This document shows positions 22,556-51,704 of a stretch of 64,000 nucleotides of DNA, in pieces. The stretch is from NCBI RefSeq assembly GCF_019972295.1, contig NZ_BLJA01000001.1, positions 1,467,607 to 1,531,606 of the forward strand, read 5' to 3'. Numbering within the stretch: position 1 is the stretch's first letter; each line of letters starts with the position of its first letter. Made by a program: the position numbers and the translations under genes. The stretch is from Geobacter sp. AOG2 (lineage in GTDB: Bacteria; Desulfobacterota; Desulfuromonadia; Geobacterales; Pseudopelobacteraceae). The notes under the pieces are model-generated. The model searched no databases and was not told where the DNA came from. It saw nothing but the letters and a program-made list of their open reading frames with translations.

Positions 22556-22738
22556 ATGCCGATCTTTGAGTATAGTTGCAGGAAATGCGGCTTGCGTTTT
22601 GAAAAGCTGCAAAGAACGGGAGAAGAGCTTCAAATAGAATGCCCTGAATGCGGGACTGCCGAGATACGGAAGGAGCTATCCACGTTTGCGGCGGTGGCAG
22701 GCACACCGCCAGCGGCGGCTTGTTCCAGCCGCGGTTGA
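22556..22738 (+). CDS. FmdB-type zinc ribbon protein
   Basis: 60 residues beginning MPIFEYSCRKCG, with a second pair in CPECG. These two CXXC pairs are the zinc ribbon of the FmdB/CxxC_CxxC_SSSS family. GAGG lies eight bases before the ATG. The tail is Ala-rich and ends CSSRG. Known members are small putative regulatory proteins of uncertain role. A candidate selenoprotein gene follows 70 bases downstream, with a hairpin (22747-22767) between them. Confidence 0.85.
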   Translation: MPIFEYSCRKCGLRFEKLQRTGEELQIECPECGTAEIRKELSTFAAVAGTPPAAACSSRG

Positions 22739-22808
22739 AGGATGTTATGATGCCGGTCCGGTATCATCCTGAATGTCCAAACATGAACCGAATAAGCGAG
22801 GTGACCGA

Positions 22809-22979
22809 GTGAAAGACCTGTTACTGCTGATTATATTCCTGGTGGTGTGGATTGTTCTCCAGAAGTATATCCTTCCACGATTCGGGGTCTCGACCTGAAT
22901 GTCCAATTCCTGCGACCTCGGGGACCGAGGTGCCAAGTATGGGGATAAAGCGAAAGATCCGGGTGACGGCAAAAAATAA
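22809..22979 (+). CDS. Candidate small membrane selenoprotein (in-frame UGA read as Sec)
   Basis: GTG 22809 has GAGG seven bases upstream. The first 29 codons give one hydrophobic span (LLLLIIFLVVWIVLQ) followed by KYILPRFGVST. Then comes TGA at 22896-22898, and the frame stays open for 26 further codons with a strongly charged, protein-like tail (Cys at position 35) to TAA at 22977. ACCTCGG (22915-22921) and CCGAGGT (22925-22931) form a perfect 7-base hairpin with loop GGA, starting 16 bases after the UGA. This agrees with bacterial SECIS rules (apical loop 16-37 bases from UGA, G in its first two positions). If UGA is a stop the product is a 29-residue membrane peptide; read through it has 56 residues. 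Function unknown. Confidence 0.6.
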
Positions 22980-51505: not shown

Positions 51506-51704
51506 GGCACTTCCATAACCGGTTTTCACCGATTTGCATGACCCGGTTGGCGTGCGGGAACGAGGTGTCGGGGTGCGAACGTACCTTGACGCCAACCTGA
51601 AGGCACCAACCCCCTGCAAACAGGCGAAACGGCATAATGCCAAGAACCATGAGGACCTGTCTCCCCTTATGGATCGGGCGAAATTCATCATGAAGGAGTA
51701 GAAC
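51506..51704 (+). promoter_or_regulatory. Structured 199-base spacer between rpmI and rplT (possible L20 autoregulatory leader)
   Basis: GGTTGGCGT (51545-51553) pairs perfectly with ACGCCAACC (51589-51597), enclosing a GC-rich 35-base inner part that can fold further. No reading frame is supported. No T-run follows the stem. Since L20 represses rpmI-rplT translation through mRNA structure in other bacteria, a leader with that role is plausible; this is inference from position and structure. Confidence 0.45.

Follow-up and report, generated by a model that had tools for sequence, protein, structure and literature searches.

The gene at 22809–22979 (plus strand) of the window, the 64,000-nucleotide stretch of the Geobacter sp. 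AOG2 genome analysed here, very probably encodes a small single-pass inner-membrane selenoprotein in which an in-frame UGA is decoded as selenocysteine (Sec), as judged from comparative sequence analysis. The frame runs over 29 codons from a GTG start to a TGA (22896–22898), continues for 26 codons and ends with TAA (22977–22979). Its product has 56 amino acid residues (VKDLLLLIIFLVVWIVLQKYILPRFGVSTUMSNSCDLGDRGAKYGDKAKDPGDGKK, with U for Sec; residue 1 is Met in the cell). A first-pass annotation had proposed a GTG-started frame with a well-spaced GAGG, and both were confirmed in the sequence, the ribosome-binding site (22798–22801, plus strand) being separated by 7 nt from the start codon. 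The putative Sec-UGA codon (residue 30), the 26 codons behind it and the TGC codon at U+5 (residue 35, 22911–22913, plus strand) for a candidate resolving Cys were found exactly where they had been placed. The single membrane span concurs with an AlphaFold2 model, in which one helix (residues 2–24, codons 22812–22880, plus strand) precedes a disordered tail (pLDDT about 90 to 86 over the first 20 residues, mean 67.5). The peptide had no match among the solved structures searched. In 133 of 142 family genes the start lies exactly 29 codons upstream of the TGA (126 ATG, 5 GTG and 2 TTG), which makes a longer ATG frame from 22773 unlikely. A Shine-Dalgarno-like word precedes 135 of 140 family starts, a count whose control (0) is weak because the control site lies inside hydrophobic codons. 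Lysine and arginine average 0.58 residues N-terminal of the helix versus 4.33 C-terminal of it in 140 family proteins, and hence the N-terminus is predicted outside and the C-terminus inside.

A tblastn-like search with C in place of U recovered 130 places in 121 of the 147 relatives, each place holding a TGA inside the match. A 43-row profile detected the family in 221 of the 277 class genomes (in 76 of the 82 genera sampled) and in 167 of 395 genomes sampled over the phylum, or 166 after a match in genome G157 (E 0.0087) had been read and rejected as chance; the sets of relatives, class and phylum genomes overlap. Hosts known by name are, among others, Geobacter sp. AOG1, Geomobilimonas luticola, Geomonas silvestris and G. 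limicola. Neither the viral contigs searched nor the plasmids (tblastn) contained the family. Its members are mostly 46–67 residues long and, among the matches listed, every one from the phylum and class scans has a TGA inside. The weaker phylum-scan matches were read in 28 genomes, where five local matches that end early have a UGA next; this reading left out the second matches of five f24 genomes and the weaker class-scan matches (including 13 genomes of family f114). All 131 distinct cores carry TGA at the aligned position, and TAA or TAG never substitutes for it.

Conservation beyond the UGA was a check named by the first-pass annotation, and T-U-(x4)-C together with a charged tail proved to be conserved. 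Across 43 aligned members (drawn from 82 non-redundant members, with the divergent copies L149 and L150 left out), M1, W14, P23, G26, T29, U30 and C35 are invariant within the consensus MKDxL...W..LQKYILPRLGVxT-U-MSxxC, which is followed by a lysine-rich tail. A Cys at U+5 was assigned by script in 133 of 143 rows, and L020, L063 and L096 were added on reading the DNA. In distant members T29 is replaced by G, S or V and the Cys is shifted (U+12 in L046–L050) or lost (no U+5 Cys in L150, L188, L192 and L195), while U stays; the members without a U+5 Cys weaken the idea of a fixed Sec-Cys pair. L149 and L150 (genomes G087 and G080) are divergent second copies that adjoin an FmdB gene and keep the UGA; in L149, an Arg codon replaces the U+5 Cys codon with the hairpin letters unchanged. 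Downstream of the UGA, the frame stays open for 16 codons in 165 of 171 family sequences versus 298 of 496 ordinary TGA-ended frames. Over codons +2 to +5 the third positions vary most, and the U+5 Cys is written TGC in 87 and TGT in 57 of 144 sequences selected for a Cys there.

The putative SECIS hairpin (22915–22931, plus strand) consists of the stem ACCTCGG/CCGAGGT (22915–22921 and 22925–22931) and the loop GGA (22922–22924), starting 16 nt after the UGA with its loop at 23 nt. The perfect stem, both spacings and a loop beginning with GG are exactly as first described. Published limits for bacterial SECIS elements comprise a loop of 3–9 nt, a stem of 4–16 bp, a spacing of 16–37 nt, a G within the first two loop positions and an energy of at most −7.5 kcal/mol (PMC13188914). 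The window hairpin fits this geometry, as had been claimed for it, with a 3-nt GGA loop, 7 bp, 23 nt and a helix energy of −9.8 kcal/mol. When the limits were taken from the legend of Fig. 2 in PMC13188914 and applied with our own script, 113 of 171 family sequences satisfied all four versus 41 of 572 control TGAs from ordinary TGA-ended frames, and 58 of the 171 missed at least one strict limit. Taken alone, the window hairpin lies within chance (45-nt stretch at −13.8 kcal/mol, z −1.19, equalled by 25 of 200 shuffles), so that the decisive case for it comes from the family. The minimum free energy was below that of synonymous-codon shuffles in 156 of 171 sequences (mean z −1.34), and in 91 of the 171 distinct sequences the best hairpin has its loop beginning 23 nt downstream of the UGA. 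In 59 sequences, two-sided stem changes occupy 81 cells versus 29.4 ± 5.5 in shuffles, all seven stem pairs show changes on both sides, and the covariation amounts to 0.453 versus 0.202 in shuffles and at most 0.244 when the alignment was slid. The position of the hairpin is maintained, with compensatory changes in the stem. These 59 belong to 64 non-redundant sequences obtained from the 144 of 171 with a Cys at U+5; the other five, L124, L126, L127, L142 and L144, are one codon shorter and were excluded. RNAalifold found no consensus pair over all 59 diverse sequences, since some hairpins are displaced by one base or codon. A G at the loop start was counted in 165 of 171 sequences, a biased number because the hairpin finder gives a bonus for it; the covariation and the bSECIS-limit tests are fairer.

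A second UGA, 23–27 codons downstream and within the motif PTUDGPxC, is present in the gene of four genomes that belong to a single family (L194, L201, L202 and L206). A hairpin of 7–9 bp with a GGG or GGA loop at 23 nt follows this second UGA in all four, and the hairpins behind the first UGA are less regular, with loops at 15–20 nt.

The presence of selA, selB, selC and selD in the genome had also been named as a check, and all four were found: SelA, two SelB, two tRNA-Sec and a SelD with an in-frame TGA. The two SelB and two tRNA-Sec (467277–469166, 514103–514196, 514567–516459 and 2649465–2649558 on contig C1 of this genome, G000) thus face one SelA, and the second SelB adjoins one tRNA-Sec. 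SelB scored over the cut-off in 115 of the 121 relatives with the gene and was missing in 14 of the 26 without it. Among genomes at least 90% complete, SelB occurs in 101 of 102 with the gene versus 6 of 16 without (Fisher 8.6e-10, taking each genome as independent). The family gene is likewise missing from seven genomes in which none of SelA, SelB and tRNA-Sec exceeded the cut-off. In a scan of phylum genomes for SelB that scored only three candidates per genome, seven genomes with the gene showed no SelB; tRNA-Sec was over the cut-off in all seven and SelA in six. Of the six relatives with the gene and SelB below the cut-off, four are incomplete (81–85%), a fifth, G101, reaches 78% completeness and the sixth, G036, is a genuine exception. 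The first four contain SelA, whole or partial (G047, G103, G136 and G139), tRNA-Sec (G103 and G139) and a UGA-bearing SelD (G047, G103 and G136). G036 (99% complete) keeps the gene with none of SelA, SelB and tRNA-Sec over the cut-off and with a SelD devoid of TGA. Its intact UGA gene (L034/L247) lies on contig C107, whose composition is ordinary for the genome, and hence a recent loss and an assembly gap are both possible.

Upstream of the peptide, the predicted FmdB-type zinc ribbon gene was borne out (60 aa, 22556–22738, plus strand; TIGR02605 57.7 bits and PF09723 54.3 bits, both over the cut-off). Counting duplicates, 15 of the 186 loci have an FmdB-like motif on the same strand no more than 1.2 kb upstream; this neighbour is not general to the family. 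From 88 upstream and 51 downstream same-strand genes, the removal of near-duplicates left 69 and 48 for scanning, which gave as raw counts C_GCAxxG_C_C (11/69), Zn_ribbon_8 (6/69) and ArsR (5/69) upstream, and a YgaP-like membrane domain (10/48), cytochrome c7 (6/48), ArsR (3/48) and rhodanese (2/48) downstream. Multihaem cytochromes are also among the operonic neighbours. These families tentatively suggest thiol and sulfane-sulfur redox work, but many loci have unrelated neighbours. Elsewhere in the window, an Rfam L20-Deltaproteobacteria ribosomal protein leader (51638–51698, 56.6 bits) and three tRNA genes were recorded.

Comparative evidence indicates that SelB and tRNA-Sec decode the UGA at residue 30 as Sec, directed by the hairpin starting 16 nt after it. 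In the proposed mechanism, the N-terminal helix would anchor the peptide in the inner membrane and, following the positive-inside rule, the basic C-terminal part would be cytoplasmic, with Sec only a few residues away from the membrane surface. Sec, usually together with the U+5 Cys, would form a selenenylsulfide, and it is possible, as a tentative proposal, that the pair relays electrons or sulfane sulfur from one thiol partner to another. That U persists even after loss of the Cys favours either a partner on another molecule or a task specific to selenium. A serious rival to the thiol relay, in itself rather unlikely, holds that the peptide is a real selenoprotein whose main job is selenium, namely a membrane-bound sensor or carrier serving the Sec machinery. 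The tight tie of the gene to SelB, the retention of Sec where the partner Cys is gone and the failure of a profile carrying Cys at U to reveal a Cys form all speak for such a role, as does G017, where the gene (L065, contig C33) lies about 0.5 kb from SelB, divergent on the opposite strand. Against it, the gene is far from selA, selB, selC and selD in the window's complete genome, the neighbours elsewhere resemble sulfur and thiol genes, and twelve SelB-bearing relatives do without it.

Two further explanations fare worse. Since Sec insertion competes with termination, the UGA might act as a selenium-dependent switch in which the balance between readthrough and termination determines how much of the short or the long membrane peptide is made and so regulates the next gene; this is improbable, as the peptide past the UGA is conserved and the next gene is not, the same-strand genes within 150 nt downstream at 51 examined loci falling into many families. 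Least probable of all is a true stop that closes a 29-residue membrane peptide ahead of a conserved RNA hairpin or of a second short frame restarting at an ATG behind the TGA: ATG does follow the UGA in 115 of 131 distinct cores, the window hairpin alone does not exceed shuffles and G036 keeps the gene with no Sec machinery detected, but CTG (11 cores) or TTG, ATA, ACT, ATC or AGG (one core each) follow in the remainder, neither TAA nor TAG replaces TGA in any core, and the association with SelB and a bacterial SECIS geometry would be unexpected of a stop.

Decoding of the UGA as Sec agrees with the SECIS-dependent selenoproteins of bacteria, which likewise combine a UGA, a hairpin 16–37 nt downstream with a G at the loop start, and SelA, SelB, SelC and SelD in the genome. 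Cys homologues are usual for such selenoproteins, though they do not define them, and the present family has yielded none. The first-pass annotation had looked to homologues with Cys at the UGA position, and here its expectation failed, U being kept throughout the members read. Among the matches read, a profile with Cys at the Sec position revealed no Cys form in 147, 395, 277 and 39 genomes, all within the phylum; in the 39, which lack the gene, every match had an E value exceeding 0.04. One weak match that recurred (query residues 16–31 in frames of about 140 residues; read in L231, L239 and L242) was identified as a response-regulator receiver domain and rejected as chance. The retention of U with no Cys form is more unusual than the Cys homologues that had been expected.

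The family appears to be unannotated so far. The 43 members compared hit no significant model in NCBIfam (June 2026) and Pfam (best E 0.018 and 0.019), and none of the 119 selenoprotein families and subfamilies in Table 1 of PMC13188914 (2026) is recognizable as this family. Nor did a search of openly available portions of the literature, among them PMC12013277, PMC9312934, PMC2398784 and PMC1794560 and exclusive of subscription journals and supplements, bring a description to light. In the known eukaryotic selenoproteins K and S, small proteins with a single membrane span, Sec lies in a basic cytoplasmic tail; they are larger, reside in the ER and use a eukaryotic SECIS. Their layout resembles that of the window peptide, with no homology implied. 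The Sec-type FmdB family protein of the GOS metagenome (UxxU/CxxU) shares the FmdB-type zinc ribbon and carries Sec inside it, whereas here Sec lies in a separate neighbouring peptide. Membership in that family was rejected: the window FmdB frame (22556–22735) is complete without a TGA, and the peptide (P0001) matches no FmdB model. GrdA, the glycine reductase selenoprotein A, was long thought to lack Cys homologues, which are now known according to PMC12013277; it is a soluble catalytic subunit and a different family from the membrane peptide.

According to PMC12013277, Cys homologues now seem to exist for every known selenoprotein, and deep-Sep may by its own account filter out families without them. 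Within the phylum searched, the present family would be an exception. That Cys cannot replace Sec here is an evenly balanced proposition; it would make this a membrane peptide with an obligate basis in selenium, retained across most of the class and much of the phylum while stem letters, tail and partner Cys change, and with Sec doubled in one lineage. Cys/Sec pairs underlie most selenoprotein searches, and the family sits in the resulting blind spot and also below the usual gene-length limits, which suggests that further small proteins of the Sec-only type have gone unnoticed. It offers a clean, testable case of why Sec is sometimes retained in evolution where Cys fails, and is a likely addition to the redox equipment of the metal-reducing Geobacterales.
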